This document shows positions 19,995 through 52,452 of a stretch of DNA of 64,000 nucleotides, piece after piece (position 1 is the first letter of the stretch; the number at the start of each line of letters is the position of its first letter). The notes under the pieces were generated by a model that worked only from the letters and a program-made list of their open reading frames with translations, searched no databases and was not told where the DNA came from. The position numbers and the translations under genes were made by a program. The DNA is from Oceanicoccus sp. KOV_DT_Chl (lineage in GTDB: Bacteria; Pseudomonadota; Gammaproteobacteria; Pseudomonadales; Dasaniaceae), in contig NZ_FQLF01000002.1 in assembly GCF_900120175.1 (NCBI RefSeq), positions 124,001 to 188,000 of the forward strand, in the 5' to 3' direction.

Positions 19995-20467
19995 TTATCC
20001 ATTTGCAACTTGAGGCGCGTCCTCTTGATCATCAACAGTGCGATGATCTTCATAGACCAATTCACCATTGATTTTCATAGAGTGAATCCGCGTCAAGAAT
20101 CCACCTATCGCAGCCCCAACTCACCAGCGCGCTCACCTTGTTTATAGATGAACGCCTTGGCACGAGGGTTAGCCATATTGAAGCGAATCAGCACATTAGC
20201 CTCCTCAGCCTCGATGGCATCCCGATGCTCAAGCACAACACCGAGTACGGTTTCAGACGAAATAATGAGATCGTGATACTCATAATGCACATTGTCCGCC
20301 GGTCCCTGGATAACCGACACTTGAGCCGCGTAGCGTTCAGGTTTACCGTCAGCACCGAATTCACGAATGCTGTTTAGGTAGCCGATGCCATTGGCATACT
20401 CGTTAAAGTAACGGTTGTTCTCTGCGGAGGCAGAGGTTTTTTTGGTATTTTCAGTGGGTTTACTCAT
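19995..20467 (-). pseudogene. STY4534-family ICE protein (DUF3577), frameshifted
   Basis: The family is found in SPI-7-like elements and is annotated as an ICE replication protein. YFNEYANGIGYLNSIREFG, DNVHYEYHDLIIS and RAKAFIYKQGERAGELG match it. The open frame stops after 120 residues at 20105. With one extra base in the C4 run at 20114-20117 the frame continues GAAIGGFLTRIHSMKINGEL to a stop at 19995, giving the usual length of about 157. An AGGAG site precedes the ATG. The loss is either a base-call error or recent decay. Confidence 0.85.
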
Positions 20468-23933: not shown

Positions 23934-24942
23934 AGACAAACCCTCACCGGTACCGTGAACAAATAGGCACCTTGTGCCTCACAGCATTCATAAGGGCGCC
24001 ATAAGGTAAATGCGTATCGGTTATCTTCTGAATGACGGCCTTCTGACCAGGAGGTACTCAACACATCGTTTTCACCAAAGGCATAGCATTGCTCATCGAC
24101 TTTAGGAGCCAACATTTGCCAGACTCCAGTACCAGGATCATTCTCGATTAATTCACCCGGTAACCAAGTGCGGTTATAACCGTTACCGTCAAGAGCGTTA
24201 TAAATATGAGGCTGGCGAGTCTGAGTCACGATATTGCCAGCCCGCTGGGCAATAACCGCCGCTGCTTTAGTATCATCTTTCTGATTAATAAAGCCTGTAC
24301 GCGGCCAAACCGGCCCCATTGTTGTTGAATGCCATCTCCCACGACACGTCGACCGGGTAACAGGTTTTGCAAATACAACATCTCCGGTAAACCAAGACGC
24401 CAGGTTAATGCATCCAGTGAAGACAGCAGGTACGGATTAAATGACTCGGCTTCGGATGGGCAGTAATAGCCGCTGTCGCCGATGAAATCAGAAACAGAGG
24501 AAAAAGGATGGCCAATCGCGGTCACTTCTTTATAACGGAGGCTTTGGTCGGCAGCTGGATTCCCGCCCTCAGTACGATGCCCTCCACCAACCAAAGCATC
24601 ATGGAAGGTACTGACAACACCGTTAACTATGCTGTTGTCTAATGAACCAAATAACGACACCATTTCTTCCCACGGATTATCGCCAGGCTCGTCGTAAACA
24701 CTCACGACCAAATCCGGATTGTAGTGCGCTACACGGATACTGGTTTCAATTGAGCATTCAAAAATACTGCATCTGAGCCAAACACAAACACCCGTAATGC
24801 AATAGTTCAAGCAAGAACGGTCCAGCGTTATTGCACCGACAATATCAGCCGTCGTAATGGTTGTGGGCTCAGCTTCAAATGCATGAATGTTGTATCCCTG
24901 TAACACCGCAAGGAGAACCAATATTTGAAAAACGCTATTCAT
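23930..24942 (-). pseudogene. traU: TraU-like ICE protein TIGR03756 (PFL_4710 family), frameshifted
   Basis: A periplasmic TraU homologue needed for mating-pair assembly, cysteine-rich as expected (LNYCITGVCVWLRCSIFECS). The frame reads ...GDGIQQQWG and then leaves register. The continuation GPVWPRTGFINQKDDTKAAA...VRVCL is in the -1 frame. Adding one base to the C4 run at 24314-24317 restores a 337-residue protein with the family's C-terminus (WRPYECCEAQGAYLFTVPVR). Both halves are well conserved, so the break is very recent or an assembly error. Confidence 0.88.
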
Positions 24943-25420
24943 TAGCAGTTCCTCCTTGTTTATCCTCTACCCACTGTCGATATTTATTGATTGCCTGTGC
25001 TAAATCGGTCACGCCGTAAATAACCGCTTGTCGATCAAAAATAATTACAGGGTAACGATTAAGGGCATATGCCATCATCGTCCCAAGGGGTAAATACGCT
25101 GTTCGTAATTCAGCATCCAATTGCGAGCGGCCAATCTGGGCAATACGTTGGTCAACCATTGCCCGAGCCTGCACTGGATCAACAGGTAATCCATGACTGA
25201 GACGATGCTCTATATTGGTAACTGCATCCAGATTGAGAATTTGAATAATCAGTTTAACGTCATCTAATTTTTTCGAGATGCTGTTTATATTGGAGACTGG
25301 CCGTTGATTTGAAGTGACAACAATGACAGATTTTGGTGATAGATCAGCATCCGCCCATGCAAGCTGGAAGATACCGATACAGCAACAAACAATTAGTGCC
25401 AAGTGATAAATTAGATTCAA
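24935..25420 (-). CDS. ICE protein TIGR03757 (PFL_4709 family), TrbC-like
   Basis: A small exported protein with a thioredoxin-like/TrbC-like layout. A signal peptide is followed by SVIVVTSNQRPVSN, AMVDQRIAQIGRSQL and NRYPVIIFDRQAVIYGVTDL, matching the family. The TTG at codon 4 of the long frame sits nine bases after AAGGAGGT and is the likely start; the GTG overlapping that site is too close. It begins the distal T4SS block after the second cargo hot spot and overlaps traU by eight bases. Confidence 0.82.
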   Translation of the reverse strand: MNLIYHLALIVCCCIGIFQLAWADADLSPKSVIVVTSNQRPVSNINSISKKLDDVKLIIQILNLDAVTNIEHRLSHGLPVDPVQARAMVDQRIAQIGRSQLDAELRTAYLPLGTMMAYALNRYPVIIFDRQAVIYGVTDLAQAINKYRQWVEDKQGGTANE

Positions 25421-25681
25421 CGCTGCCACACCTCCTTGATTAATCCATGAGAGGCATGATTAATGATTTGGCTTTAAAACAGCTATGAAAAATGTTTCAC
25501 AGAAGGAAGAAAATTTTTGGAAACAAGGGATAGCCGGATTGAAATGTTATCTAAATTTAAAAGGAATATTATTTCTGTTATCTGTTTTAACTACCAGATC
25601 TAACACGTCACGAGTAATTTAACGTCAATATTTAACCAAAACGTATTGTCTGATAGCAACTAAGAACCACGTTATTTTCAG

Positions 25682-26005
25682 TTGGATCTGGTTAATCAAG
25701 GTCCTTCCAGCAGCACGATCAATGGACTACTTAGCGGCCTGCATTTCTTATTTGACGTAACTCTTAATAATCCCGATGCACTCAAAAACATGAGCACGAT
25801 TTATCAACCGCGTAAAATCCCTATCGTGTTGAGCCAGCAGGAAGTAAAACAATTACTGGACGATGCTGTGAGCCTAAAATATAAAGCGGCCCTATCAACC
25901 GCTTACGGTGCAGGCCTTCGCGCCAGCGAAGTCACGCATTTTAAGGTCAGTGACGTTGATAGCCAGTGGATGCTGCTCCACATCGAGCAAGGCAAAGGGG
26001 GGACG
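25682..26005 (+). pseudogene. Tyrosine recombinase fragment (XerC/IS91-accessory type)
   Basis: The peptide STINGLLSGLHFLFDVTLNN, then IPIVLSQQEVKQLLDDA and AALSTAYGAGLRASEVTHFK, is the N-terminal domain and first catalytic Arg block of phage-integrase-like recombinases that accompany IS91-type transposases. It breaks off after the EQGKGG motif, where it joins IS256-like sequence. Both ends are missing, so it is inactive debris. Confidence 0.75.
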
Positions 26006-26029
26006 GAATCGACAGGCGATGCTGTCGCT

Positions 26030-26345
26030 AGCACAGCTTCGGTTACTTGGCATAACCTGATACGTTTTTTAATTACCCAGCTGATATCAGGAAAGTTATC
26101 TACACCACCAACGCCATCGAATCGCTTTACAGCGTTATCCATAAGGCCATTAACAAGCGTAAGCTGTTTCCTACTGATGATGCGGCGAAGAAAGTAATTT
26201 ACCTAGCAATACAGAACGCCTCAAAAAATGGACTATGCCTATCAGGAACTGGAAGCCTGCACTCAATCGATTTATGATTGATTTTGAAGACCGCTTAGCA
26301 GATTATATTTGAACTTGGCAGTTAGACAGAATTATTTACAGGGTC
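26030..26345 (+). mobile_element. 3' remnant of an IS256-family insertion sequence with terminal repeat
   Basis: Read across two single-base shifts, the sequence gives NYPADIRKVIYTTNAIESLY, FPTDDAAKKVIYLAIQNASK and WTMPIRNWKPALNRFMIDFE, the C-terminal third of an IS256 transposase. The breaks are at the T6 run (26065-26070) and the A6 run (26223-26228), each one base short. After the stop, GGCAGTTAGACAGAATTATT followed by TACAGGGTC is a typical IS256-type right end. The 5' part of the element has been replaced by the recombinase fragment. Confidence 0.82.
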
Positions 26346-26379
26346 TAAGCATGCTCTAGAGACTGAGTTTTTAGCTCAT

Positions 26380-26496
26380 TTATCCGCGTCTTTTTTTCAG
26401 CTCTTCAATCACACCATCTAAATCATCCATATGCACTCCTACTTGATACCCGCACTTCTCTAACGTCTGACACTTATAGAACTGGTAATCGAGCAA
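26380..26496 (-). CDS. Possible 38-residue ORF
   Basis: A TTG-initiated frame (LDYQFYKCQTLEKCGYQVGV, then DDLDGVIEELKKRRG) directly downstream of the last gene of the nuclease-lipoprotein cassette. The acidic-then-basic end looks protein-like, but there is no strong ribosome site, and it may be the tail of a damaged gene. Confidence 0.25.
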   Translation of the reverse strand: MLDYQFYKCQTLEKCGYQVGVHMDDLDGVIEELKKRRG

Positions 26497-26516
26497 TATT
26501 CATTCCAGCCCTACGG

Positions 26517-26735
26517 TCAGTCGCCCTCAAATACTAAAATAATTTTATATTTATCTGCCGGAGTACAAGCACTTCGACCATACGCCCCAGCCCCTGAAGA
26601 TTGAAAATGAGCAGCTTCGTATTCCGCTTCAGCCTTCAGTCTAAGGGTGTACCCCTTCACGTTTACCCATGTGTGTACTGCTTGATTTACTTCACTCTGG
26701 CCAGCACAAAAAACAGTTACTATATTATTTCTCAT
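26517..26735 (-). CDS. Small hypothetical protein, last gene of the nuclease-lipoprotein cassette
   Basis: The start is placed at the ATG seven bases after AGGAG. The 72-residue product (MRNNIVTVFCAGQSEVNQAV...) has a Gly/Ala/Tyr-rich middle and ends in KYKIILVFEGD. The alternating hydrophobic pattern suggests a small beta-rich domain. It is not recognised. It lies 10 bases after the lipoprotein gene, so it is probably co-transcribed. Confidence 0.55.
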   Translation of the reverse strand: MRNNIVTVFCAGQSEVNQAVHTWVNVKGYTLRLKAEAEYEAAHFQSSGAGAYGRSACTPADKYKIILVFEGD

Positions 26736-26745
26736 GACTATACTC

Positions 26746-27666
26746 CTATGCTCTGCACGCTTTGAGAATTTCTGCCCTTGCCGCATCATCTTTCTTGAGA
26801 TCAGAGACTAGCCGCTTTTCATTATTGTGATACCCGCTAATTCTCTTAGCTTCTGCGTCTATTAAGTTTGCAGGCGTGGTGCCTTTCCATGCGAAAACAC
26901 AGCCTTTGGCTTCAATGATTTCCTTGTTCAAGCTACTAATCTGATCCTTAGTCCCGTTTGCAAGGGTGGTAGCTTCTTCAGGAGTCGCACCTGCATCCAA
27001 TAGTGCTTGAACTTCTTTGGATTTCTCTTGATCGGCTTTGGATTTTTCCTGCTCGGCCTCGGCCTTTTTTCCCTGTGCCTCTGGTGCCTCGGCGTTCAAT
27101 GCCATTCCTACAGACTGATTAGCCCCCAACCTCTGGGCAGCAACGCCTGTTGCAAAAAATTGAGCAAGATTACCTGAAGCCGAGTTAAACCCTAAAGTTC
27201 CTTTTGCGCCCAAACTGGCAAAGACCGAGTAAGTATCAATTTCGAGCTCATTGCCGCCTTTTGTTTCTTCAATGCCCGATGACAGGGACACATATTTACC
27301 CGCAGGTAGTACAGCAGTTAAACAGAAGCTAGCCCTTTGTTTCTGGTCAGTTATCGTATCTTTTAAGCTATCATCACACTTCTTGATATTAGTTATTAAT
27401 TTTGACACGTCATCATCCGGATTATAATCAACCTTTCCATTAGGCTTCAACGGCATCCATACAGCCTCTAGACGTTTATACCCAAGTGTAAATTCAGGGA
27501 TACCTCCATTTTGTATCGGCGCAGATACATCAAGAGCAAATTTAGTTGTCGTCCCAAAAACGAGGACATCATTGTGAGGGTTTTCATCGCCGTTTAAAAC
27601 GCACCCCTGGACAATAAATAAGCAGATTAACAGGGAGCAAGCTCTCATTACTCTAATTCTATACAC
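26746..27666 (-). CDS. Putative lipoprotein, 306 residues
   Basis: The signal peptide ends in a lipobox (LLICLFIVQGC, Cys about residue 22), so outer-membrane or periplasmic anchoring is likely. An N-terminal beta-rich domain (DVLVFGTTTKFALDVSAP, TLGYKRLEAVWMPL) with two internal Cys is followed by a Lys/Glu/Ala-rich low-complexity segment near 200-225 and a helical C-terminus. I do not recognise the family. It overlaps the upstream lipoprotein gene by 19 bases. Confidence 0.65.
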   Translation of the reverse strand: MYRIRVMRACSLLICLFIVQGCVLNGDENPHNDVLVFGTTTKFALDVSAPIQNGGIPEFTLGYKRLEAVWMPLKPNGKVDYNPDDDVSKLITNIKKCDDSLKDTITDQKQRASFCLTAVLPAGKYVSLSSGIEETKGGNELEIDTYSVFASLGAKGTLGFNSASGNLAQFFATGVAAQRLGANQSVGMALNAEAPEAQGKKAEAEQEKSKADQEKSKEVQALLDAGATPEEATTLANGTKDQISSLNKEIIEAKGCVFAWKGTTPANLIDAEAKRISGYHNNEKRLVSDLKKDDAARAEILKACRA

Positions 27667-28004
27667 AGTCCGTCTCCATTCAGAATATCATTGTTTTTAA
27701 AGAATATTTTTAGATTTTCTAGCTGTTCTTCATTTTTAACTATCACGACTATACGACATGAATCATTAAGGGATATTTTTTTAGTGCTGTTGTAACCAAT
27801 ACCGGAACTTGACTCATCAACCCAAAAGCCAAGTGTCGTTATATCACTTTTTTCCGTTTCATTTTTCTCTCTACTAATATCAATTTTTACGACCCCAAAT
27901 CGCCATATAGGATTATTTTTTACTGTTTCATTTGTAACTGTTGAGCATGCTTGAACCAGCAAGGTCGTGACCAATAGAATATGCTTTCTGCTCAATATGC
28001 TCAC
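27648..28004 (-). CDS. Putative small lipoprotein
   Basis: A 118-residue product with a lipobox (LLVTTLLVQAC) and a Ser/Thr-rich mature start. DISREKNETEKSDITTLGFW resembles the start of the domain in the following lipoprotein (both have a TLG motif after a charged run), so the two may share a fold. Either the GTG start or a TTG three codons later is possible; AAGGA lies just upstream. Confidence 0.6.
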   Translation of the reverse strand: MSILSRKHILLVTTLLVQACSTVTNETVKNNPIWRFGVVKIDISREKNETEKSDITTLGFWVDESSSGIGYNSTKKISLNDSCRIVVIVKNEEQLENLKIFFKNNDILNGDGLCIELE

Positions 28005-28034
28005 GTTCCTTACTCTCCGCCTGGCTTCTTTCTT

Positions 28035-28400
28035 TCATTTCGTATCATCTCCTTTTGCATCTTTACCAAGTAAATAGCCTGCAATTGCACCGAACAGCCC
28101 GACTATTGGTGTAAGCTGGTCATTATCGTATCCCACAATGAGAAGCAGGCTGGACAAACCAAGGATAGAAATAACACCAAATATCCTTAGTATTTGCTGG
28201 GCAGGTGAAGCACTTCGCCAGAGCAGAACTGTTGCCAGCAGCAAAGCCAAACAACAAAAACCCAAAACACTTAGCGAAAGGAATTGTATTAAATCTGTTG
28301 ACCATGGTTGATGAACTTGGTTCTGAACAGTCGTCGTTCTTTCAAACGCACTTTGTGCCTCTGTCAATTTTGATAACGCTTCCTGCATATCGCCAGCCAT
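28035..28400 (-). CDS. Small membrane protein with two transmembrane segments and glycine-rich end
   Basis: A helical N-terminus (MQEALSKLTEAQSAFERTTT), two strongly hydrophobic segments near 38-60 and 68-85, then LTPIVGLFGAIAGYLLGKDA, which resembles a third short glycine-zipper helix. The stop overlaps nothing, but the start shares its first base with the end of the upstream gene (TAATG type junction), showing tight operon structure. Function unknown. Confidence 0.6.
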   Translation of the reverse strand: MAGDMQEALSKLTEAQSAFERTTTVQNQVHQPWSTDLIQFLSLSVLGFCCLALLLATVLLWRSASPAQQILRIFGVISILGLSSLLLIVGYDNDQLTPIVGLFGAIAGYLLGKDAKGDDTK

Positions 28401-28681
28401 TATTCATTTCCTGCTTCTAATTTGCTTACGCGCTCTTCCAGAGTTTTTATCTTTGAGGAAAGCAATTGTATTACGCCGGTCTGTGCTCTAATCAAATTCT
28501 GCATCTGATTAAATCCAGCTTCACTTGCTCCTGGAACTTGTGCTGTGCCCAAAGAAGGCTTTTGCTTATTATGCTCAGGCACTTGCATTGAATCGTAAGC
28601 CAGTGTTGAAGCTGCTGCCGGGACTTGTTGCGCCAAAGTATCAATTGACAGAAGCATTAGCAGTAATATTAGAAACCTCAT
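28400..28681 (-). CDS. Exported coiled-coil protein
   Basis: A 93-residue product with a signal peptide (LILLLMLLSIDTLAQ), a Pro/Gln-rich linker and a C-terminal heptad coil (VIQLLSSKIKTLEERVSKLE). It may trimerise or bind the neighbouring lipoproteins. Not recognised. It lies 28 bases after the nuclease gene. Confidence 0.6.
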   Translation of the reverse strand: MRFLILLLMLLSIDTLAQQVPAAASTLAYDSMQVPEHNKQKPSLGTAQVPGASEAGFNQMQNLIRAQTGVIQLLSSKIKTLEERVSKLEAGNE

Positions 28682-28709
28682 CTATAAACCCCTCCTTGTT
28701 CACTCTCTA

Positions 28710-29561
28710 TCAATCATGATCCACGCCCGTCTCAAATAGCCCAACGAGCGGCAGGTGGTCGGTTACATTGTTGCGGTAATTGGATAGCGATAGCCCCATC
28801 TTTTCATGCATGGGAATAATTTTTAGCATAGTTGCATTAAACTCAATGGAATCAAGGATGGTAAATCCGAAACCATCGAGCAGATTACCGATATGGGTGC
28901 CGCCAGAGGTGCTGATATGGGAGCCGCCCTCAAGACCGGAAGAGGGAAACATAAAGGGCAGTCCTTGTGCTTCCAGAACTGCAAAATCTTCCTCGTCTTC
29001 ATCGGGGATCATGTTGTAATCACCAACAATAAGAATATCCTTTTCGCCCATGGCGATGATGCCTTGTGCAAAGGCTTCAATCTTTTCTAGCTGTTCTGCC
29101 CGCAGCTTTCTGTTTGTGGTGCCCCGCCCTGCTTTTAAATGAACACCGATCAGCATGAAGTCATAATTTTCTATGCGGGCATGGACGAAGGCGGCATTAC
29201 GGTAGCCTTGCTTGCCAAGATCGCTTCCGATAATCATGCCTGATCCCAGTACTTCAACATCGCATTTCATAAGAAAGCCGATTTCCTGCCTTGCGCGTGG
29301 CTGGTCAGGCACGATAGCTTTATGGCAGGGATCAAGATCGTGACTTAGGGTAGTTGCTAGCCATTCACCGCTGGAGAGCGGATTAAGTTCAGGCAGAACG
29401 ATAATATCGGCATCAAGGAGTTTGAGGCCTAGTGCGATCATATTAAGATTGGATTGGGGGATCTGGTGAAAACCACCCAGATTCCAGGTGGCTATGCGCG
29501 CGGTATCTGCCAGCAGATACGGGGCATAGATAAGCAGTAGGAGGGAAAGTAAGGGTTTCAT
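28710..29561 (-). CDS. Exported endonuclease/exonuclease/phosphatase (EEP) family protein
   Basis: A 283-residue product with a signal peptide (LLSLLLLIYAPYLLADT) followed directly by the EEP fold. ATWNLGG, IVLPELNPL (metal Glu), IGVHLKAGRG (catalytic His), VGDYNMIPD (Asp/Asn) and TDHLPLVG (final Asp-His pair) are all present, so the enzyme should be active as a metal-dependent nuclease or phosphodiesterase outside the cytoplasm. It is the first gene of a six-gene cassette inserted between the transfer ATPase and TIGR03757. An AAGGAAGCAAGG site precedes the ATG. Confidence 0.85.
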   Translation of the reverse strand: MKPLLSLLLLIYAPYLLADTARIATWNLGGFHQIPQSNLNMIALGLKLLDADIIVLPELNPLSSGEWLATTLSHDLDPCHKAIVPDQPRARQEIGFLMKCDVEVLGSGMIIGSDLGKQGYRNAAFVHARIENYDFMLIGVHLKAGRGTTNRKLRAEQLEKIEAFAQGIIAMGEKDILIVGDYNMIPDEDEEDFAVLEAQGLPFMFPSSGLEGGSHISTSGGTHIGNLLDGFGFTILDSIEFNATMLKIIPMHEKMGLSLSNYRNNVTDHLPLVGLFETGVDHD

Positions 29562-29702
29562 CCTTGCTTCCTTGAGTCGTCATCGGTTTTGGTTGTTGTT
29601 TTAAACGACGACTACTGCACCATTCCCTGCCGCTGTTAGGCCGAGTCTAACACCCCTTTCCCGAAATGTGAATGGGCCACAGAAATGGTCAAATACGGGA
29701 CA

Positions 29703-29900
29703 TTACGCCCCGTTATCGCTCTTTATCGCGTTTGATGCGGGAGCATCGTTTCGAGCGATAAGCTCGTCCCGCAGGATGGGCACATCCTGCGGCGCGGTGA
29801 TGCCGATACGAGCCTGGTTGCCATTTTGAGACAGAATGGTGATTTAAATATCATCACCGATAAAAAGAGAGCTACCTTCCGTGCGGGTGAGAACTAACAT
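29703..29900 (-). pseudogene. csrA-like gene with in-frame stop
   Basis: Read through, the frame gives MLVLTRTEGSSLFIGDDI, a TAA stop, then ITILSQNGNQARIGITAPQD and further: a CsrA homologue of 65 codons with stop codon 19 where Lys is expected (AAA to TAA). The C-terminal half departs from the HREEIY pattern. Its leader (AAATCAAGGACGGATTTATG) nearly matches that of the chromosomal csrA at 4.1 kb. CsrA paralogues are known cargo and regulators of conjugative elements, for example in Legionella. Confidence 0.8.
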
Positions 29901-29963
29901 AAATCCGTCCTTGATTTATCTGGTAAGTGGAAGGGCAAGCCTACCAGCTTGCCCCTGTTCTTT

Positions 29964-30259
29964 CTAGAGACTCCAGAATAAATGCACTTCCTTGTAGCCC
30001 CAGTCTCGATGGCGAATACATCCCCGCCAAGCTTCATATCGCGCCCAATGCGCTCATAGTCGATATAGAAGGCTAGATTCTACGAAATCTCGCTAGTTTG
30101 TTCCGTTAGCTCCTGAGCGTAATCGGCCAGGCATTCATAACAGCCGGAATAACTCTCTTCTAGTGCCTTTATGACCTCAACAAGATCGCCGCAAAAATGG
30201 TTTAACACTTCCCCAGAAAATTCGCCGTGCTCATCGATAAAACAGTCAATGTCATGGGC
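29964..30259 (-). pseudogene. ardA antirestriction gene remnant
   Basis: The frame encodes the C-terminal half of ArdA, the DNA-mimic that blocks type I restriction during conjugative entry: YSGCYECLADYAQELTEQTS and FYIDYERIGRDMKLGGDVFA. It lacks the N-terminal domain, has a TAG stop in place of the expected Glu after EIS, and leaves frame at the C4 run 29998-30001. One added base there restores the family ending GGYKEVHLFWSL. It is inactive as it stands. Confidence 0.85.
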
Positions 30260-30312
30260 AGACTATAATCTATTCCGATTATTCTGATCGATTTTTCAAT
30301 CATGTTGACGTC

Positions 30313-30459
30313 ATGGCAGGTCAGACAGTAAAAACAACGATAAAGATAACACCTCGACAAACTTACGGCATGTGTAGTGCAATGCCAAAGATAAGTGTCA
30401 GTGTTAATATTGATGAAAAGGACATTCTGATTAACAAACTCTTAGCAGAAGGCTGCTAA
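30313..30459 (+). CDS. Possible 48-residue ORF
   Basis: MAGQTVKTTIKITPRQTYGM, then PKISVSVNIDEKDILINKLL: a protein-like frame on the opposite strand to the T4SS, upstream of the ardA relic. No ribosome site is apparent before the ATG. It could be the remains of a small regulatory or antitoxin gene. Confidence 0.25.
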   Translation: MAGQTVKTTIKITPRQTYGMCSAMPKISVSVNIDEKDILINKLLAEGC

Positions 30460-30612
30460 TAAGAAGACAACAATGATCATGCTTCATTAGTTATTCACCC
30501 ATCCAACAAGTCCATAGAGGTTCTTTCTGTATTGGATTGTGAATCTGACTATTTTATATACTAAATATTTTATAAACAGATTCAACTATTAATACCGACA
30601 GTCACTCATTAG

Positions 30613-33320
30613 CTAACCTAACTCCTCATCCATACGGTCAGCAATAACAAACACCGCCTCCAATTCAGAACAATGTTGAGATTTCATAATCTCAGCGCGC
30701 TGTTGTTTTTCATGCTTTTCCGTCATCGCCAGCGCCAACGCTAAGGGTGGAGGCACATTTCTGAAAAGGCATTGAAGATTATCTGATAAAACCACACCCT
30801 CGGTGTAATTCCCCGGTTCTTTTCTGGCTGCGCGAAGCATGCCTTTTTGCTCTTCCGTCAGGTCTTTGAAGCGAGAGATTTGTTCAATTTCTTCTTTGGG
30901 GCAAACCATCGCGATCCACCACTCAAACATGCTGAGCAGCTTTTTTGCAGCGTCAGGAAAATCTTCCAGATTTTGTGTCGCCAACCACAACCAGGCACCG
31001 AGTTTGCGCCACATTTTTACAATTTTGACCAGAAAAATGGAGAGTAACGGATTTGTGGTAATCAAATGTGCCTCATCCCCCAACACAAAGGTGGGACGAT
31101 GATCGTACTGCTCCCTTTCTACGACGCCATTGATTTGATTCATCAACCCCATAAAACCTAAAGCGAGCTGGTCTTCATAGCCTTCATTAGCCAACAACCC
31201 CATTTCCATAATGGTGACATCGGCCTCTGGCCAGGCCTTACCCACGCGATTAAAAAAGTGCCCAGCAGTGCCTGAACAATACAGAGCCATCGCATCCCCC
31301 ATGTCTTTGGCTCGCTCTCGGCGCTTGGGCGTGCTGGATTCGTCCAGTGCCAATTTATTCAATGCGCTAACCACATCCTCAGTTAATACGATTTCCTGAC
31401 TGCCAGCCGCTTGCTTGTCTTCTGCAGCGATGATGATTGCTTTTCGAATCGTCAGCCTATCGGCCCGTGTCATGAGTGCTTCTTCCTTGCTGTCACCACC
31501 GGTTATCATTATCCGGGCTTTCAACTCCATCTCACCCAACAGGTCGCGCACCTCAAGATCATCACTGCTATCAGAAGCTTCTAATGATGCGTCTTCATCA
31601 AAGGAAGCTTGCTGAGCAATTTCTCGCTTCAGCATTTCATAGGCATCCGCAAAAGGCGGCAAACTCACATCTTCTTTGGGGTGAAGCGTGATTTGGTTGA
31701 CGCTCAAGCCAAAGTATTTGCAATAGTCACCAAACAGCTTAAATGATCCCCTTTTTCAATAATGTAAATGCGCGCACCGTAAATGGCGACGACCTGCAAG
31801 AGGACGTACACCATCAAAGCAGATTTGCCCGAACCCGGAGGCCCTAACACCAAACCAAATGCGTTTTTGGCTCTATCCAATTTATTCAGTGGATCGAACG
31901 TTAGCGGCTCGCCACCGCGATTGAAAAACACCATGCCGGGATGTCCCGTGCCCCGACTGCGGCCATAGAAGGGTAGTAATCTAGCCAGATCACTGGAAAA
32001 CACGAGACGGCTTTTGCGGTTAATCTTTTCCCGCATCGGTTCATAGTTCATCGGCAGCTGTCGAATATAGGTATCCAACGGCAACAGTTCATCTTTTTCT
32101 CGAATGGGGTGCAAGCCATTAGCCAATAACAACGCATTGGCTTCATTGGTTTTCTTTTGCAGATCAGCCAGTGAATCACCACGAGTGAAAAGCGTTATGA
32201 CTGTAGGCAGCAGATAGTCACCATGGGACATCCATTTCAGTGCTTCTTTAGCATCCTGCTCAGCGGCCATCGCCTCGGCGGTTTCGCCCTTTGCAGCATT
32301 GAGCACTTGCACCACATGGTTTTCTACCAAGTCCTGTGGTTGCAGAGTCAGGCATATGGAAAGAATGCTGCCTTCAGGCAGCTTATCGAATAGCGCATAT
32401 AAATTATCACCAACCTGTCGTTCGCCAGTAAAGTGACCGGGTAAGGGTTTACGCCTCAACGCATCAACGGTAATGGCTCGGTGTGGCAACTCGTCAAACC
32501 ACCAAACACCGTGTTGCTTATCAGACTCTGGTTGTGTCAGAAATAATAATTCCGATAGGTCGTGGCTAAATACCTGATCCTTTTTTTTGGGTAAGGGAAG
32601 TAACTCGATCAAGGCATCGAGATCACCTTGAACCACGTCCGCCGTGGGGTTAAACCATCGCAATAACCAAGTGTAGAGATCACCGTCGTCACAACGTCGA
32701 GTACCGATTCCGCTTGCTACCATCTGTGTAACAAAACGTTCAGCAACCTGATTTATTTCAATAACGGGATCAGCATGCTCGTTATCATTAACCTCTCGCC
32801 GACGATAAAGAAACACTCGCACGCGACGCACTTTACCTCGCCAATTACCACCAGTAACCGTGGTATCTTCAAACAGCCCTGAGCTCCGTGTCATTCGCTT
32901 AAAATGCCGTTGCATACGGGCTACAAAATTCTTTGCCAGAAGGCGATGTTCTTCTGTTTGCCTGCAATGTGTTTCTACATAAGCATCAAGGGACCGAGAC
33001 AATACTGACAGTGAATCTTCATCCGACACAAAGCATTGCAGCACAAAGGGGTTGTCATGTGCAGGGATGGTATGATTGATACAAGTTTGAATATTAGCCT
33101 GAACCTCATGCAGAAAACTGTCAGAACGCGCCTCGGTAGATACACCGGTAATTTCAAACATCGCTGCAGCGCTATATCCATCTTCGAGCGTGAAAGTTTC
33201 GGAAGCCTCGTCGTAATCCACCCAAGGCAACCAATCGCCCAAGGTGACCGGGCGACGATAGAGCTGATCGACATCATTATCAGTAACCACTGATGTGTTT
33301 TTTGATGGTTTAAATAGCAT
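30613..33320 (-). pseudogene. Conjugative transfer ATPase (TIGR03744, TraC/VirB4-like), frameshifted
   Basis: The motor ATPase of the T4SS. The first half (residues 1-538) ends ...FGLVLGPPGSGKSALMVYVL (Walker A), ARIYIIEKG, then leaves frame. The second half resumes with SFKLFGDYCKYFGLSVNQIT and contains FVLGDEAHLI (Walker B). One base added to the C4 run at 31748-31751 joins them into a 902-residue protein, close to the family's length. The ATG after the AGGAGGG site is preferred over an upstream GTG. Without repair, transfer would be lost, so the break matters for whether the element is mobile. Confidence 0.9.
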
Positions 33321-33322
33321 GG

Positions 33323-33679
33323 CTATTCCCACCCTCCTTGTTCACTCGGTATGGCAATATGGTCTTGCGTATACATCCGGAAAAATGTGCTGTAGCCAGG
33401 CACTGGATGACCTGCTGGTGTTAGATGTTTGAAGACATACATACTCAAAGTTGGATTTGGCAACCACATAAAATCACCCTGCATCGATTCTTCTTTATCA
33501 CTGTCCAGTCGATCAGGTTTTTTCAGTTTTACATCGTTAGTTTTATGAAATTTATTATCGTGAATGGTCTTCATCGATGGCATGTCCGTGCCAAAGACTT
33601 TTGCCTTGGACGTTGTACAAGCCGACAACAATCCGCCGCTAATCCAAATTACGGTTACTATGAGCATCATCTTTCGCAT
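33323..33679 (-). CDS. ICE lipoprotein TIGR03751
   Basis: A conjugative-transfer-region lipoprotein of 118 residues. The signal peptide ends LLSAC (Cys21), followed by TTSKAKVFGTDMPSMKTIHD and a conserved FMWLPNPTLSMYVFKHL block, as in the family. It probably anchors the outer-membrane core of the T4SS, as VirB7-like proteins do. AAGGAGGG precedes the ATG. It overlaps its upstream neighbour by 41 bases. Confidence 0.85.
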   Translation of the reverse strand: MRKMMLIVTVIWISGGLLSACTTSKAKVFGTDMPSMKTIHDNKFHKTNDVKLKKPDRLDSDKEESMQGDFMWLPNPTLSMYVFKHLTPAGHPVPGYSTFFRMYTQDHIAIPSEQGGWE

Positions 33680-36542: not shown

Positions 36543-36906
36543 CGCTTTACTCTCCGGCCAAGATCCCAAATCTGGCTTTGTCGTATAAACGGAGAACGCA
36601 ACAGATGGAGGTCTTCGAGCCATAGACGCAATCGCAACTGATAAAAACCCAGCGGCCTGCCCGCTTGAGCTTTTGCAAGGCTGTTGCACCAATAACAACC
36701 CAGGCAATCACCAACAGCAAGCCGATGCCGACACCCATCATCAGATAACCAAATAGTCCGCACACAATCACACTGCCAGGCACTAGGACGATACCGCCCA
36801 CCGTGACCAGCAGCATCAACTCCGAAAGCGAGCAACCCCTGAAAATTGAAGGTTCCGCATTCAACCTCAGGGGCAACAGCTCATTGATTTCCTGCTGAAA
36901 ATCCAT
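36539..36906 (-). pseudogene. ICE protein TIGR03750 (DUF3487), frameshifted
   Basis: A small membrane protein of the T4SS inner complex, VirB3/TraL-like. LRLNAEPSIFRGCSLSELML and two transmembrane helices are followed in the family by KRGRPxGYYQ. Here the frame drifts after LQKLKR, while the true tail GRPLGFYQLRLRLWLEDLHL and LRSPFIRQSQIWDLGRRVKR continues one register away. Adding a base at the C3 run 36660-36662 repairs it to 122 residues with an ATGA overlap to the next gene. Confidence 0.87.
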
Positions 36907-37579: not shown

Positions 37580-37869
37580 TAGCGGTAATTTCCGTCTACG
37601 GGTGGTAATGACCGTGGCTCACGTCGCTCACTGTTAATAGCATCCAAAATACCTTGTTGGATTTTTTGCAGGTCGTCGCTCAAACGTTGGTAATCGATCT
37701 GTCTGCGATCGCGCTGATTGGCGGCCTGCTGGGCTTCATCAATAATTTTGGTGACGGTTCCCAGCTCAGTATTCAGGCGCTGTAGAACGGAACGCTCTTG
37801 ATCCGTGATGGCGTATGTGGGCGCTGACAGTAGCGCAAGGATTAAGGAGGAAATTACTGGGGTTCGCAT
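37579..37869 (-). CDS. RAQPRD-family ICE protein
   Basis: An exported helical protein of about 96 residues with a signal peptide (VISSLILALLSAPTYA). RRQIDYQRLSDDLQKIQQGI is followed by the variant end-motif RREPRSLPPVDGNYR in place of RAQPRD. The ATG at codon 3 is best spaced from AAAGGAT. This is the first T4SS gene after the 38-52.8 kb cargo island. Confidence 0.85.
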   Translation of the reverse strand: MRTPVISSLILALLSAPTYAITDQERSVLQRLNTELGTVTKIIDEAQQAANQRDRRQIDYQRLSDDLQKIQQGILDAINSERREPRSLPPVDGNYR

Positions 37870-38138
37870 AATCATTATCCTTTGTTGAGGTAATGATCAT
37901 GGAAATTTTAATCTTGGGGTATGGGAAAGCTTTCTAAGGGGAAGGAAATTAATTATATGGATTTTATGAATAGGTATTAGCCAATTACTTCTGGCAGCCA
38001 CAGTGCACCAAATGTAATTTTCTGGAAATTCACTTTGGCAGAAGACGGCCAAGCGGACATTCAATTCTTCGACTCTGTCCACATCATATTTTGGTGAGAT
38101 CGGGGCAATTATTCGCCTCTAACCTAAACTTCAATCGT

Positions 38139-39398
38139 TTATTGTTCGTCCAGCCAATCACCGTCAACCAGCCATTCTTTTGGAACTTCTCTTAGGTCTA
38201 AAGATTTGTGCTCAACCTCCAAGCCAAGACTGGATGAGCAGTGTGCAGAAAACCATTTTAGTGATTGAAACTCGAAAGCTACACGCGTAAAAAGGTGATT
38301 GGAGACAAGCCAAAACCCTGAAGATAGATCATGCTTATTTTTGCTTATTCTGGCGAAAACTTCATCGTTATTAAGTATGGTTGCATGGGCTCCAGAGTCA
38401 GCGCAGTATTTTTTGAAATGCTTTAGGTCAATAACAACAACCAAGTAAATACCCCCCTCTATGAAGGAATATAAATATTCTGGGTTTATCGAAAGGGTAA
38501 ATGGGTAGTAAGGAATCCAAGCATTTTCTGTTTTTGCAGGATTTAAAAGCCAAACAATTGTTGTACATGTAACAATTTCATTCATGAAGCTTTCGTAGTC
38601 TATGTTGCTCCCTGAAATAGCAATGTAATGTAACCCTTCTTCGGGCGAAACAATACCAAGCTTGTCTTTTTGTGATTTTTTTATAGCTTCGTTCAATTCA
38701 TCAAAATAATTTACTTCTACTTCGCCAAACGAAGCACGAATTACATTCTTTACCCCTCTAAACTCCTCAGCCCCATCATTTTCAAAAAAGGCACCTATAG
38801 ACTTCAGGCTTTGAATCTGCCTGTCCTTTCTGGAACTACTGGCCTTGCTACTTTTAATCTCAACGGGAAAGGGGGTTCCATCGATAGGAGCACATACATC
38901 TCCATGACGAATAACGTTTGTAATATCGCACAGAACACAAGGCATACCCACCTTTATGGATTTCTTAACAACACTCCATTCAAGCTTGAAACCTTCTTTT
39001 CCTGATAAAAATCCAGCTGATTCTTTAGGTGAATAATCTTCGGTGTTGTAGAAGAGGTTTTTCAAGTCGTATTTGGAGAAATATATATTGGCTATCCCAT
39101 CACCGAAACACTGCCAGATAAAGATAAGGTGCTTATATTCATTTATCGTTTTTTTTAATTTTTTAGATAACGCTTTAAGTCTTATAGATTCGGACTTTTC
39201 AACTCGATTGTATTTCCTAACCTTCTCTGATTCTGATAATGTTTGTTTGTTAATTCGAATACGTTTTTCGCATTGCCTAATTTTGGATATTAGAAAACGC
39301 TGCAAATCTAATAACAAATCAAGATTGTCAGGGCTTTGCATGAGGTCATGCAGCATGTAAGAAGCTTTATTTATTGATTTTTTGTAGCGTCTAATCAT
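38139..39398 (-). CDS. Putative PD-(D/E)XK-type nuclease, cargo island
   Basis: A 419-residue protein whose first 90 residues are basic and helical (KKSINKASYMLHDLMQSPDN, many Lys/Arg). The middle has RHGDVCAPIDGTPFPVEIKS followed by SKASSSRKDRQIQSLKSIGA. The Asp...Glu-x-Lys arrangement with a following Gln/Lys helix is the restriction-endonuclease fold pattern (D about 168, E and K about 180). The C-terminal half is unrecognised. It is AT-rich relative to the T4SS genes. Defence or DNA-processing activity is inferred from motif and location. Confidence 0.6.
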   Translation of the reverse strand: MIRRYKKSINKASYMLHDLMQSPDNLDLLLDLQRFLISKIRQCEKRIRINKQTLSESEKVRKYNRVEKSESIRLKALSKKLKKTINEYKHLIFIWQCFGDGIANIYFSKYDLKNLFYNTEDYSPKESAGFLSGKEGFKLEWSVVKKSIKVGMPCVLCDITNVIRHGDVCAPIDGTPFPVEIKSSKASSSRKDRQIQSLKSIGAFFENDGAEEFRGVKNVIRASFGEVEVNYFDELNEAIKKSQKDKLGIVSPEEGLHYIAISGSNIDYESFMNEIVTCTTIVWLLNPAKTENAWIPYYPFTLSINPEYLYSFIEGGIYLVVVIDLKHFKKYCADSGAHATILNNDEVFARISKNKHDLSSGFWLVSNHLFTRVAFEFQSLKWFSAHCSSSLGLEVEHKSLDLREVPKEWLVDGDWLDEQ

Positions 39399-39672
39399 TT
39401 CAGATATTTTTCAGACTTAGTATGAACCACTTTTAAACCTCTAATTCCTATAGGGTTAACTGGTAGTATTGCAATGTATTTCACCGAAGACTATCAACCA
39501 CTTTGTTGCCTCCATAGTCGCTCCGGTTTCTCCCGATTGGAGCGGTTAGTTTTCACCTACGGGGAAAACGCCTCTGTATCACGGCAAACGGCGAAAATCG
39601 GACATTTTTGGCAAGTATAACAATGAAAAATAATGCACCTAAGTTCAGGGAGCATTTCGGCAATACCCCCTT

Positions 39673-40992
39673 CTATTTCTCAGTACTAACTTCAAAACGA
39701 AGGCTATACCCATTACCTGAAGGCCACTCCTCACGAGAAACCTCAATATTTCTACTTTTAATATCTCCAAATTTTGTATCACCAGCAATAACCGCTTTCT
39801 CGTACTCCTCAGGTAGCTCTGACCCGACGGCCTCCTTGTATAGTCGACGAGCTAGCCAAGCAAGTTCATTATGAGCAGAGCTTGCTGACGTAGGCTCATT
39901 CATATTAAGGCACAATTTTAAACATTTTGCCGCATGGCTATTACCATCTATATAGTAGGCGATATTATTCGGCATTATGCCACCTTCAAGTTCTACTAAA
40001 TTAGAAGATGCAAACCATTCATCATTTCCTAAATCGGTGTAATAACCAGTTTTAAGCCCATCCGATACAAGAAAGTCTTTGGCTTCATAAGGAGACCAGC
40101 CGACAGCAAAATTAACTCTATCAGGGTTCATTTCATATTTGGCTAACTTTTTCATCCCAAATAATGAAAAGTGAAGCTCTTTAATCGATTTGGTATCGCA
40201 ACGAATAACTGAATTTTTCCATCGATCTAATAAATCCACATCAAACCTAAAGAATAACATTGCTAAGGTTTTGGCATACCATCGTAGCCATGTTTTTGAA
40301 ATGGTCGTCTTTAGGCCAATAAAAGCTCGCTGATAGCGAATATACAACCTCAATACAAAAACAAAGGGCAAGAACAGTGTAGAAAGCGCAATGGGCAATA
40401 TAACATCCGCCAGTGTGGCCGCACTAAAGAACTCTCCTGTATCAAAGATCAGTTGATAAAAAGCATATGCAGTAACTAATAAGCCCATAAAGCCCATAAG
40501 ATAAAGAATAAAGCTCACAGCAGCCTTGTTCTTCTCATCACCCTCAGCCATTGCCAACATGGCCCCCAAAAGGGCAGTAACTGGCACAAAGATAAATTCC
40601 ATATAGAGCGGTAGGCCATAAAAATTAATAACGATCTCTATGAAGAAGATTATCTTCACGTTAACTTTCAGTGCGTCAGAAAAATAATTTTTCTGATCAG
40701 CAATTTTATTCATACGAAATAAAGTAGACAGACCAACAAAGAAAAACCAAAACAACGTGTTTTTTAAATAATTAGATTCCCAAACCCCCATCTCCCACAA
40801 GGCAAAAATCATAGAGCAGAAATACAACACCATTAGGAAAAACGGCACCAATATTTGAGGTGATAGAAAAATATTGGCACTAGAAGATAGAATTGATGAG
40901 GCGCTTTCGAACGCGTTTTTTCTATAGAGGAATCCAATTAAAACGATCAACCAAAAAATAATGGCAATTTCTCGGTTTGACAATAAATCCAT
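39673..40992 (-). CDS. Multi-pass membrane protein of unknown function, cargo island
   Basis: The first 220 residues contain six to seven hydrophobic helices (IAIIFWLIVLIGFLYR, ILVPFFLMVLYFCSMIFALW, LPIALSTLFLPFVFVLRLYI). The last 200 residues are soluble, with DRVNFAVGWSPYEAKDFLVS and a helical Ala/Glu-rich end. No family is recognised. A membrane-plus-cytoplasmic-sensor layout is common among abortive-infection effectors, but nothing here proves it. It starts 63 bases after the helicase stop, so the two may be co-transcribed. Confidence 0.6.
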   Translation of the reverse strand: MDLLSNREIAIIFWLIVLIGFLYRKNAFESASSILSSSANIFLSPQILVPFFLMVLYFCSMIFALWEMGVWESNYLKNTLFWFFFVGLSTLFRMNKIADQKNYFSDALKVNVKIIFFIEIVINFYGLPLYMEFIFVPVTALLGAMLAMAEGDEKNKAAVSFILYLMGFMGLLVTAYAFYQLIFDTGEFFSAATLADVILPIALSTLFLPFVFVLRLYIRYQRAFIGLKTTISKTWLRWYAKTLAMLFFRFDVDLLDRWKNSVIRCDTKSIKELHFSLFGMKKLAKYEMNPDRVNFAVGWSPYEAKDFLVSDGLKTGYYTDLGNDEWFASSNLVELEGGIMPNNIAYYIDGNSHAAKCLKLCLNMNEPTSASSAHNELAWLARRLYKEAVGSELPEEYEKAVIAGDTKFGDIKSRNIEVSREEWPSGNGYSLRFEVSTEK

Positions 40993-41055
40993 ATTCGATG
41001 CGAATCTCCGTTATTTAAATCCGGCCATAAGCGGACATTAGATGGGCAACTTTTT

Positions 41056-44000
41056 TCATGCAATGCTCTGAGAAACCAGCTTCATATTACCAAGGCCGCC
41101 CCATAGTTCTTTGTTGCCGACAACGTAAAAATTCTGTTTAGCTCTGGACACTGCTACGTTGAGCAAATTGACATTACTTGTTGCCCAGTTTCTGGCTCCA
41201 TTCTGCATCGGGCTAGGCGCACCTAACAAAAGAATAACAGCTTTTGCCTCTTTTCCCTGAAATGTGTGCACGGTCCCTATATTATTACCAATCCATTTAT
41301 CGGGATCGATAATTCCGAAGCTCAACAGCCGTCCTTTTTCCTGCTCCATGCGTCGTCTCATTCGTTCGGCTACAATCCGGAACGGGGTAATCACAAATAT
41401 ATCGGGGTCACCCGAAAAATACTCGCTGGCTTTGAGGAGCATGCCGCATACACGCTCTCCTTCTTCGGGACACCATTTTTCTTCCGCACTACCCCGCACA
41501 TCTATCCATGACGTTTGACTGCCGAACAACTTCGTAATTTCTGAATCCTTAAAAGCCGTCGCATGAACCATTAAACCGGAATAAGCGAGTTTATTAGATA
41601 TCGAAAACATGGGATCTTCACAGCGTCGATGCACTAGAAGCGGCGTTCCGATCCTGATTTCACTTAAATCTCTTGGGATAGTCGTGCCGTAAATATTACT
41701 GTTATCAGAAAGTGTTTGAACGGAAGCATCAGGAGCCGCCCATTCGTCTGGATTAACCCCTAAATGCTTTGAAATACCTTCAACAATAGAAGAGGGCAGT
41801 GTCACAATAGGCTCAATTTGCAATGGATCTCCCACGCTAATGACGCGTTTGGCTCTATAGATTGCACCTACAGCTTCTTGGGGTGAGGCCTGTCCAGCCT
41901 CATCAATGAGTAACCATCCAAGACTTTCTTTCGGTAAACCTTTCATCATTCGCCCCACTGACGCAAATGTCGTTGACATGACAGGGACCACCATAAATGC
42001 GCTCGACCATAGGTGCGGAAGTAAATGCTGTTTATCCTGAGGTAAGGGTCTTCCCCCCAAGCATGCAAAATAGGCAGCCATGTTTTGGCGAAGTTTTTTA
42101 CCGGATGCATCAATAAAGGCTTTATGCAGCTTTATAGCTGAAATAAATACATCATCTCTTAAGCGCTGTGCTTTATCGGTAAAATTAGGCGTGAATATCT
42201 GCTGCTCTTCATGATTCAATAGCCATAAATCAGGCGTTACAAGCTTTCCATCACATACGGCTGAAGCCTTTTTCAGCTCGCCAAGAGAGGCTTTCAACTC
42301 TTCTTCAAGCACTTTCTCCTGAGATTTACGCTTGATAATTTCTGTTTCCAGATTTTTGATCTTATGATCAGACACATTCAAGCTCTTGACCCCATTATCA
42401 TATTCTTGTCGAAACTCAACAAGTTTCGACAAGATGAGTTGGTGATCGGATTTCCACGAATGCCATTGAGATCGAGCGAAAAGGCGCTTAAAGAATCCAG
42501 GCTTTTTGGACAAAGAGAGACTTTCCTTATCCTGTTGTGTTTTTAGTTCCGCATCCTTTTTCAGAAAAACGGTTTTAAGCTGATCACTTTCCGACTTAGC
42601 TAGACTGATACTTTTTTCTAATTCTGATTGCTTTGATCGATTGCCAATAATTTGTATTTTGAGTTCGCTAGCGACATGATAATTCTCGTATGCATTTTGT
42701 GCTAAGCCGGTCACATTTTCAGCAGCCTCTAGCGCCAAACTAAATTCTTGTCGCGCTTTGTCCCATCGAGCCTTAGCTTCATTCAAGCTTTTAGGCGGGT
42801 CACACTCCTCGATAATTCTAGGAATGATGTCTTCACCATCTTCATCCACTTCGAAGTTCAGCTGTCCCGTGATGTATTTAAAGTACTTTTGCAACGCAGA
42901 GTTATCATCCCACCATGCCTTATTGATGAAGGCACTCCGGTTTTTTGAATTTCCTAAAACCGCCGCAATAATCCCCCATGTCTCTGTATCTTCTCCGTCA
43001 CCTGCTAATTCATCACTAAGGGTTTTAAAATAATTCAGCTCTTCAATGTCTTCAGCTATCTGTGATTTGCGTGGCAGCTCTTTGCTGACATTTTCAACAG
43101 CCTTATTGTTAGACGAGGCCACAAGAACTTCATGACCACGAAGCGAGCCATCAAGCTTATAGAGATGAACAAAGCTGTTCCCGAGCTTCATTTTTCCGGC
43201 ATGCTCAAAGGCATCTTCTGCATCTTTGAACTCGAATAAAGCTCTGGCTCTCTTAACAAGAACAGCAGCAATTATGTCGCGCAAAAGAGTTGTTTTACCC
43301 GTACCCGGTGGCCCATTCACCGAAAATAACCCATCGCTCCATAATTCTTTCACTGCCAGATTAACCGCTGCTTGCTGAAGCAATACAAGTGAATGACGCC
43401 CCTTACTCGGCCAGCGGGATAACGGCATATTTCGGGGCTCTAGAGCTTTTTCAATATGTGCTTTATCTTGAAGCACATCATATTTAACTTCAGGTTTTTT
43501 AATTCCAAGATAGCAAGAAAGCGCTTCACCGCTTTTTCCCGTACCAACCGCCTGCTTGGCACGCTGTAAATCATCCAGAAAGAAGCTGTTCAGAAGCGGC
43601 GCATCAGGTTCACCTCTACTGAAAGGTTGATATAGACGAATAGCAAATGAAGGCGCTACGCTTTCGTCTATGGGAAGCTCATAATTACTAGAAAGCCAGT
43701 CAAAGGCCTGCCTAGCTTTTTGTAACGTAAAAGGTAAAACCTGACCCTCTTCATTTTGCCGATAAATTATTTTATCCAGCCCTTCGGTAAGGGCCTTTTC
43801 TGCAACCTCCCAGTATTTAAGCTCGCTCAGCTTGCCTTTCATAGCCATCATATAAGCCCAGCCAAAGCTTGAAATTGCCAACCCAGTATCGGGAACGGGA
43901 ACGCCATGCTTATCAAGCAATATGACGCCGAGCGCGGCCAACCCCTTAACTTGTGGACGCTCGATGCGCTTATCCTGATAAATGCTCAGTAACTGAGTTG

Positions 44001-44583: not shown

Positions 44584-44631
44584 ATGGATCTACCCAAGTA
44601 CGCTGATCTATCTACACCACATGATGGGGAA

Positions 44632-44680
44632 GCGGAGCCAGTCTTCATATACGCTAAACGTATATACGAAGCTGCTCCGC
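44632..44680. promoter_or_regulatory. Long hairpin between kinase-like and helicase genes
   Basis: Three nested complementary blocks (GCGGAGC/GCTCCGC, CTTC/GAAG and TATACG/CGTATA) fold into a stem of about 49 bases, ending 49 bases before the helicase start. There is no T-tract after it in the direction of transcription, so an operator or attenuating leader fits better than a terminator. Confidence 0.45.
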
Positions 44681-44706
44681 AAGATCCTCATCTCCGAGTA
44701 ATCGGA

Positions 44707-45282
44707 TTATATCTCCTTCTTAGCGCAAATCTTCTCAAAGATTCTTTGAATGCGATTTTGAGTGATATTTGCATTCGGGTCTAGATACGGAACGTCAAGA
44801 TGATTGAATACATGATCTATCTCTAGACTGGCATCGCGTCGAAACACCATGTTGGCGTCACGTCCTCCTCCGACAGGAATTGATTCGTCTAATGTGGTTT
44901 TTAGTAGTAACGCATAGCGCTTCGAGTGATTTTTTACTAAATCATATAAATAACTCCGCTCTTCGCTAGTAAGGCTTCGCTCAGTAGCCTTTAGAGCAGC
45001 CTCTAAATATCCGAGGGCATCGAGCACGGGCCGATCAACCAGAACCAGATCTGCGCTCAGCTCTGCTTCTAACTCAGCCTTGATTACGGAGACAATAATC
45101 CACAAGGTGCTCTCGAAGGTATGGTTCTCCAAAATAGGAAATCCAGCCGCTTGGCATTTGGTCGCTGTATCGCTAATTCGAATGACTGATATTCCTATAG
45201 CCTTCGCTTGGTTTTCGACCGTTTCAATGAAGGTTGATTTACCAGTTGAGTGAGTACCGGCAATTCCTAAAAAATAAGCCAT
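44707..45282 (-). CDS. P-loop kinase/AAA_28-like NTPase, third gene of the radical-SAM operon
   Basis: A 191-residue P-loop protein. Walker A is GIAGTHSTGKSTFIET at residues 6-20. DLVLVDRPVLDALGYLEAAL provides a Walker-B-like Asp followed by an Asp-Arg-Pro, as in thymidylate-kinase-like and NadR-like nucleotide kinases. An Arg-rich lid (GGGRDANMVFRRDAS) follows. It probably phosphorylates a nucleoside or small molecule, or acts as a GTP/ATP switch. Its start shares one base with the exonuclease stop, so the two are translationally coupled. Confidence 0.7.
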   Translation of the reverse strand: MAYFLGIAGTHSTGKSTFIETVENQAKAIGISVIRISDTATKCQAAGFPILENHTFESTLWIIVSVIKAELEAELSADLVLVDRPVLDALGYLEAALKATERSLTSEERSYLYDLVKNHSKRYALLLKTTLDESIPVGGGRDANMVFRRDASLEIDHVFNHLDVPYLDPNANITQNRIQRIFEKICAKKEI

Positions 45283-50410: not shown

Positions 50411-50456
50411 ACTGCGTGAGCTAACCCCTAATATATGATGTATAACTATATTCCAT

Positions 50457-52022: not shown

Positions 52023-52159
52023 ATAAATGGTTAGGCGATTAGATTTTTCGCTTGAGATAAGTGCCTCCTTGGGAGCCCTTGCACATCAATCCATTGTATC
52101 ATTATAAAATTTCATGTCCGCTTTGGGCACACAACAGTCATTAGAATATTTTTATTAAT

Positions 52160-52450: not shown

Positions 52451-52452
52451 AG

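Follow-up and report, generated by a model that had tools for sequence, protein, structure and literature searches.

Integrative and conjugative elements (ICEs) of the genomic-island (GI) type, the ICEHin1056/PAPI-1/SPI-7 class, have a conserved core whose genes are interspersed with cargo that varies between elements, as set out in three reports (PMC3864950, PMC9437646, PMC2258188). Here we analyse a block of six genes inside the transfer region of such an element in Oceanicoccus sp. KOV_DT_Chl, within a stretch of 64,000 nucleotides (contig NZ_FQLF01000002.1, positions 124,001 to 188,000) that is referred to below as the window and whose own numbering is used throughout. Comparison with related elements shows that the block is a cargo insertion and not part of the transfer machinery. 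Its lead gene encodes a protein that, as judged from a structure model, is a divergent member of the endonuclease/exonuclease/phosphatase (EEP) superfamily. We give about an even chance to the reading that an exported phosphodiesterase, probably a nuclease, is carried as ICE cargo in a variable gap between the traC and TIGR03757 genes, perhaps beside an unrelated envelope operon.

The transfer region is encoded on the minus strand and comprises PilL2 (TIGR03748), TIGR03747, TIGR03751, TIGR03744 traC, TIGR03757, a TraU-family gene and a TraG_N protein. NCBIfam cutoffs were passed by TIGR03747, TIGR03748, TIGR03757 and, for the C-terminal open reading frame (ORF) of the split traC gene, TIGR03744, and the TIGR03751 match was slightly below its cutoff (68.6 vs 77.7 bits). 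By this gene content, the element is assigned to the GI-type (PFGI-1 class) ICEs. The gap in question is delimited as follows:

30613-33332, minus strand: traC/VirB4 transfer ATPase (TIGR03744), apparently frameshifted into 31704-33332 and 30613-31707
24935-25429, minus strand: TIGR03757 integrating conjugative element protein, the second flank of the gap (NCBIfam match)
25504-30629: insert, defined by comparison with the near-empty site in the relative L038, whose spacer aligns up to 25503 and resumes at 30630

Related elements were collected with the C-terminal half of traC as a probe, which matched 30 of 293 same-order genomes (the own genome included) at E ≤1e-20. From the 37 traC places listed, we examined 20, namely the best ones except the window itself and one place at a contig end. 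In the closest sampled relative, L038 (traC halves 85% and 93% identical, tblastn), the gap between the traC and TIGR03757 matches measures only 191 bp. Since the L038 spacer aligns at both edges, the element studied here carries ~5.1 kb of extra DNA; ~115 nt of the L038 spacer between the aligned edges match neither side. Both flanks are contained in 14 of the 20 stretches (with TIGR03757 of L051 identified through a hidden Markov model), and the gap between them is nearly empty (87-309 bp) in five and 885-11641 bp long with other genes in nine. The other six yielded no second flank in the sequence examined, in several cases because the contig ends. The cargo differs between the filled gaps: genes for CzcA-type metal efflux together with FTR1 and CDF proteins (L039), CzcA and AbiEii (L040), a NERD protein (L042, L045), RadC (L051, L052, L054), thioredoxin-like proteins (L051, L053, L054), a HEPN protein (L053) and a 184-aa ORF without family (L046). 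None of the six genes was found at E 1e-3 in the 20 stretches, where the initial annotation of this locus had suggested looking for the cassette; the search with all six was confined to these stretches. The GC content of the insert is 43.6%, compared to 47.2% and 47.9% in the flanking blocks of the type IV secretion system (T4SS). The two marks of a cargo insertion, a close relative with an empty site and contents that vary at this position, are thus both present.

Seen across the GI-type ICEs L038 to L056, the traC-TIGR03757 gap is a variable cargo gap adjoining the transfer ATPase gene, and new ICE cargo can readily be sought there. No account of the cassette, or of this gap as a hotspot, was found in the literature, including the accessible parts of PMC3864950, PMC5217437, PMC9437646 and PMC2258188.

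The block consists of six closely spaced ORFs on the minus strand. Export signals, lipoboxes, the coiled coil and transmembrane segments were assigned by eye and with a simple hydropathy window rather than a trained predictor:

28710-29561, minus strand: EEP-fold hydrolase of 283 aa with a probable N-terminal signal peptide (PF03372 E 2.3e-4, alignment, model)
28400-28681, minus strand: 93-aa secreted protein with a predicted signal peptide and a C-terminal coiled-coil-like region, behind a strong GGAGG box
28035-28400, minus strand: 121-aa membrane protein with two clear transmembrane segments and a weaker third
27648-28004, minus strand: 118-aa predicted lipoprotein, lipobox LVQAC, AT-rich (33.6% GC)
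26746-27666, minus strand: 306-aa predicted lipoprotein, lipobox IVQGC, with a charged, probably helical C-terminal half
26517-26735, minus strand: 72-aa protein without signal peptide, GGAG box before the ATG

All six ORFs are intact, and most are preceded by good ribosome-binding boxes. Four ORFs of at least 110 aa were observed, compared to a mean of 0.33 and a maximum of 2 in 200 mononucleotide shuffles of the span, and two of at least 250 aa, a length reached in none of the shuffles. The sixth ORF extends over 26789-26517, and its start is more likely the ATG at 26735, which directly follows the stop of gene five behind a GGAG box (by eye); the alternative 90-aa start at 26789 overlaps gene five and has no such box. 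No clear excess of promoter-like or terminator-like sites over shuffled sequences was detected. The description of six tightly spaced genes, five of them unrecognised, given in the initial annotation was confirmed. Its placement of the block inside the T4SS operon, between the transfer ATPase and TIGR03757, is right as to position, but the block is not fused to the operon: a spacer of ~1.05 kb separates the end of traC (30613) from the start of the nuclease gene, and one of ~1.09 kb lies between gene six and the TIGR03757 start (25429).

The best Pfam, NCBIfam and PHROGs matches of the five partner proteins have E values of 0.0025-0.17, far below curated cutoffs where these exist, and the 93-aa protein has weak coiled-coil Pfam matches only. 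PADLOC, whose library covers described systems only, gave no match for any of the six genes (E 0.1). A model of the 306-aa lipoprotein was of too low confidence to be used (pLDDT 46); among sets of 37, 369 and 293 genomes the only match of this protein was in its own genome, and none was found in plasmids, phages or viral contigs. The other four partners were likewise found only as the own-genome copy among 37 genomes each and were absent from plasmids, phages not being searched. Viral contigs contained no relatives of the 121-aa and 93-aa proteins and were not searched for the 118-aa and 72-aa proteins. With no relatives to compare, these results speak neither for nor against a function shared by the partners.

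The lead protein has a hydrophobic N-terminus (residues 3-21, hydropathy) ahead of its core and is probably exported via this predicted signal peptide. The conserved motifs WN26-27, E58, H141, GDxN180-183, D229 and TDH267-269, which we take to be the metal and catalytic residues of EEP enzymes, are invariant in 17 of 17 alignment rows, except that the window protein has T for S in TDH. The PF03372 cutoff of 24.5 bits is passed by the relative L068 (30.7 bits), while the window protein (21.4) and the relative L064 (20.9) stay below it; we read this shortfall as divergence because fold and motifs are both in place. A structure model built from the 17-row alignment (pLDDT 74, pTM 0.77; residues 203-240 of low confidence) has the EEP fold; its structural matches include TDP2 at Z 22.3, a bacterial EEP protein at 21.2, DNase I at 21.0, EEPD1 at 19.9 and an ExoIII homologue at 19.6. 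Mannosyl-6-phosphatase and neutral sphingomyelinase were also among the structural matches, and the 50 listed Z values span ~3.3. In comparisons with PDB sequences, TDP2 came first for the family profile (E 5e-7) and EEPD1 for the window sequence alone (E 3.8e-4), and there were weak matches to sphingomyelinases. NCBIfam single-sequence matches were weak and below cutoffs; for ExeM/NucH (NF033681), the window protein had no match at E 0.1, and L064 and L068 reached only ~20 bits vs 300. With so little separating TDP2, EEPD1 and DNase I, these matches do not point to a particular substrate. The protein is probably a phosphodiesterase and, more specifically, a nuclease.

Relatives of the EEP enzyme were absent from plasmids and viral contigs, phages not being searched, and the relative L062, used as a query, had none in plasmids either. 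Among the 293 same-order genomes, five besides the own genome gave weak, mostly partial matches of 24-28% identity, and 369 genomes of the class yielded two clear relatives (G612, G334) and two weak ones. A single-sequence scan of genome contigs found no relatives. With an alignment (A1) as the query, 71 candidate stretches yielded 20 loci, one of which, L072, is apparently G334 again; such a scan detects relatives only where a short conserved motif is retained. Sixteen of the 20 loci entered a second alignment (A2), L079, L081, L082 and L083 being excluded as partial or frame-broken. The relatives come from Nitrosomonas, Paracoccaceae, Desulfobacterales-type and Deltaproteobacteria metagenome-assembled genomes (MAGs), Planctomycetota, Flexithrix, Leptolyngbya, Limisphaerales, Chloroflexi and others, and share 35-39% identity with most of the window protein (34-41% in the global alignment A2). 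Neighbours were compared at 18 loci, with up to five ORFs per side: L062, L063 and 16 of the 20 (without L079, L082, L083 and L072, which shares a contig with L063). The rows of L078, where an opposite-strand ORF was taken as centre, and of the frame-broken L081 are rough. Partner genes were found around none of the 18 loci, and at E 1e-8 neighbours were shared, several of them, only between two Nitrosomonas marina loci. The EEP relatives have no consistent neighbour.

Within A2, identity to L069 is 61-81% for 14 rows and 44% for L068. Fourteen lone relatives (L064-L080) from six phyla are close to L069 and have no consistent neighbours, as if a single gene had moved between phyla. A signal peptide was obvious in only one of the 18 relatives, L068 (by eye, some starts being uncertain). 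This protein (L068:5412-6278), from a Limisphaerales MAG, shows no greater identity to the window protein than the others do.

Both spacers around the block contain broken mobile-element genes:

29996-30262, minus strand: ardA (antirestriction) remnant in two pieces (PF07275 E 2.1e-4 and 8.4e-7)
29703-29901, minus strand: csrA-like pseudogene (PF02599 E 2.5e-9 for the part after an in-frame stop; stop and start by eye)
26056-26277, plus strand: C-terminal remnant of an IS256-family transposase (NF033543 E 2e-14)
25682-26014, plus strand: tyrosine recombinase fragment (PF00589 E 1.5e-7; TIGR02249 E 1.2e-14, far below cutoff)

The broken csrA and ardA copies adjoin each other upstream of the nuclease gene; copies of csrA on ICEs are known from Legionella. 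Downstream of the block, the recombinase fragment, presumably of an IS91-associated type, adjoins the IS256 tail, and plasmid copies of IS256 match the window DNA over ~26047-26348. An integron-cassette origin was considered and dropped, as the recombinase fragment scored best with an integron model but far below its cutoff. Only short, chance-like repeats were found to bound the insert, and scans of the window with Rfam (gathering cutoffs) and for tRNAs gave no matches.

A second insert may lie in the same transfer region at 37842-52986, as judged by gene content. It would include:

41056-44583: SF1 helicase-like protein
45884-47266: MiaB/RimO-like radical SAM protein
50457-52022: TIGR04141 sporadic protein

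In the scenario that we favour, a passenger block entered the traC-TIGR03757 gap of a GI-type ICE, a gap that is filled differently in related elements. The lead gene would supply a metal-dependent EEP phosphodiesterase that is exported via its signal peptide and hydrolyses nucleic acids in the periplasm or outside the cell, either to scavenge nucleotides or phosphate or in a general breakdown of free DNA. Genes two to six would probably form a separate envelope operon or be loose partners, and the block would have no functional link to conjugation.

Several observations weigh against parts of this scenario. The gap between the EEP gene and the next gene is only 28 nt and all six genes are codirectional, which fits one transcription unit. 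The GC content at third codon positions (GC3) is 0.50 in the nuclease gene and 0.29-0.40 in the partners, but since GC3 of the core gene TIGR03757 itself is 0.35, this difference is no clear sign of a separate origin. Lowering the threshold to E 1e-3 adds three single pairs of shared neighbours of EEP relatives, including glyoxalase-fold proteins of L062 and L064. Such a protein (Pfam) is located near the EEP gene in three of the 18 loci, directly beside it in L062 (8989-9393) and L064 (7082-7462) and two ORFs off in L071 (7931-8308). The glyoxalase-fold family is very common, none of its members is present in the window block, and these neighbours may be due to chance. Finally, the survey of the gap is limited to a single genome per species, to relatives picked via traC and to 20 of 37 places.

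The initial annotation went further and suggested a surface or periplasmic nuclease complex that might cut incoming DNA or phage genomes, exclude competing elements or scavenge nucleotides. In one form of this idea, all six proteins would make up a single envelope machine that cuts incoming phage or plasmid DNA, with the lipoproteins and the membrane protein anchoring and localising the exported EEP enzyme. Close spacing, common direction and envelope signals on five products (by eye, hydropathy) are consistent with this, as is the defence-type cargo (AbiEii, NERD, HEPN) that some relatives carry in the same gap. However, no partner genes lie beside the EEP relatives, PADLOC gave no match, and the partners have no relatives in the searched sets that could show co-conservation. 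The nuclease is, in substance, found alone elsewhere with unrelated neighbours, at 18 loci, which is what the initial annotation itself had named as evidence against its proposal. With the cassette recognised as cargo at a site that is near-empty in the closest relative, and the nuclease occurring elsewhere without partners, the idea of a guard complex loses its main support, and we regard such a machine as quite unlikely; what stands is a probably exported EEP enzyme with intact motifs beside envelope-type proteins in an ICE. A more specific version, in which an exported TDP2-like enzyme on a five-protein envelope scaffold destroys phage DNA, or single-stranded DNA linked to a relaxase (5'-phosphotyrosyl-DNA), in the periplasm, as an extracytoplasmic barrier against competing elements, appears the most improbable of all. 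Only slightly less remote is an entry-exclusion module of the ICE. The predicted lipoproteins and membrane protein adjoin T4SS genes, and known exclusion systems show a similar arrangement. Exclusion genes, though, normally travel with their own transfer system, and the block is absent from 20 of 20 examined relative stretches, including L038 with its closely similar traC.

Two other alternatives are equally unlikely, each only a little less so than the envelope machine. The exported enzyme could be a phosphohydrolase of lipids, sugar phosphates or nucleotides, like other EEP proteins: the substrate is not set by the fold alone, and sphingomyelinases and mannosyl-6-phosphatase occur among its matches. 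A nuclease is favoured over this by TDP2 as the best family-profile match and by the DNA enzymes TDP2, EEPD1 and DNase I among the best structural matches. Alternatively, the block could be decaying and functionless, as cargo being lost from an inactive ICE segment. Compared to L038 proteins, the transfer region has four apparent frameshift breaks (20114-20120, 24313-24316, 31731-31755, 36545-36721), which split traC, the TraU-family gene and two more genes (near 20117 and at 36545-36721), and csrA and ardA are broken as well. As the host genome of 4.8 Mb is rated 99.96% complete, real decay seems a more likely cause of these breaks than assembly error; three of the four are at or near short homopolymers (by eye), so that sequencing error may also account for them. 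Decay of the block itself is countered by its six intact ORFs, mostly with good ribosome-binding boxes, and by the complete set of EEP catalytic residues. If the frameshifts are real, transfer-linked roles of the cassette are moot in this strain.

The case is mainly a lesson for annotation: when related elements were aligned, what could be annotated as a nuclease complex in a transfer operon turned out to be cargo, located in a gap whose contents vary among GI-type ICEs. Should the five orphan proteins of the envelope type turn out to cooperate with the EEP enzyme after all, the set would represent an unusual periplasmic barrier to nucleic acids.

Compared to described systems, the element resembles other GI-type ICEs in its core with variable cargo, while the traC(VirB4)-TIGR03757 gap is not named as a hotspot in the accessible parts of PMC3864950, PMC9437646 and PMC2258188; the traC of PMC2258188 may be a different gene from TIGR03744 traC. 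The lone EEP proteins (L062-L081) belong to the same subfamily as the window protein and differ by having no partner genes and, save L068, no obvious signal peptide. TDP2 is a cellular DNA-repair enzyme that is not exported. It is the top family-profile and structural match and shows a similar H-L-x-S-x-R stretch in alignment with the window family, but identity is 15-18% and DNase I lies within ~1.3 Z of it, hence we make no claim on specificity. DNase I, in turn, is a secreted enzyme. While the secreted DNases and bacterial EEP hydrolases (DNase I; 3mpr, 3g6s) are only 13-15% identical to the window protein in structural alignments, they share its predicted fold and its catalytic motifs.

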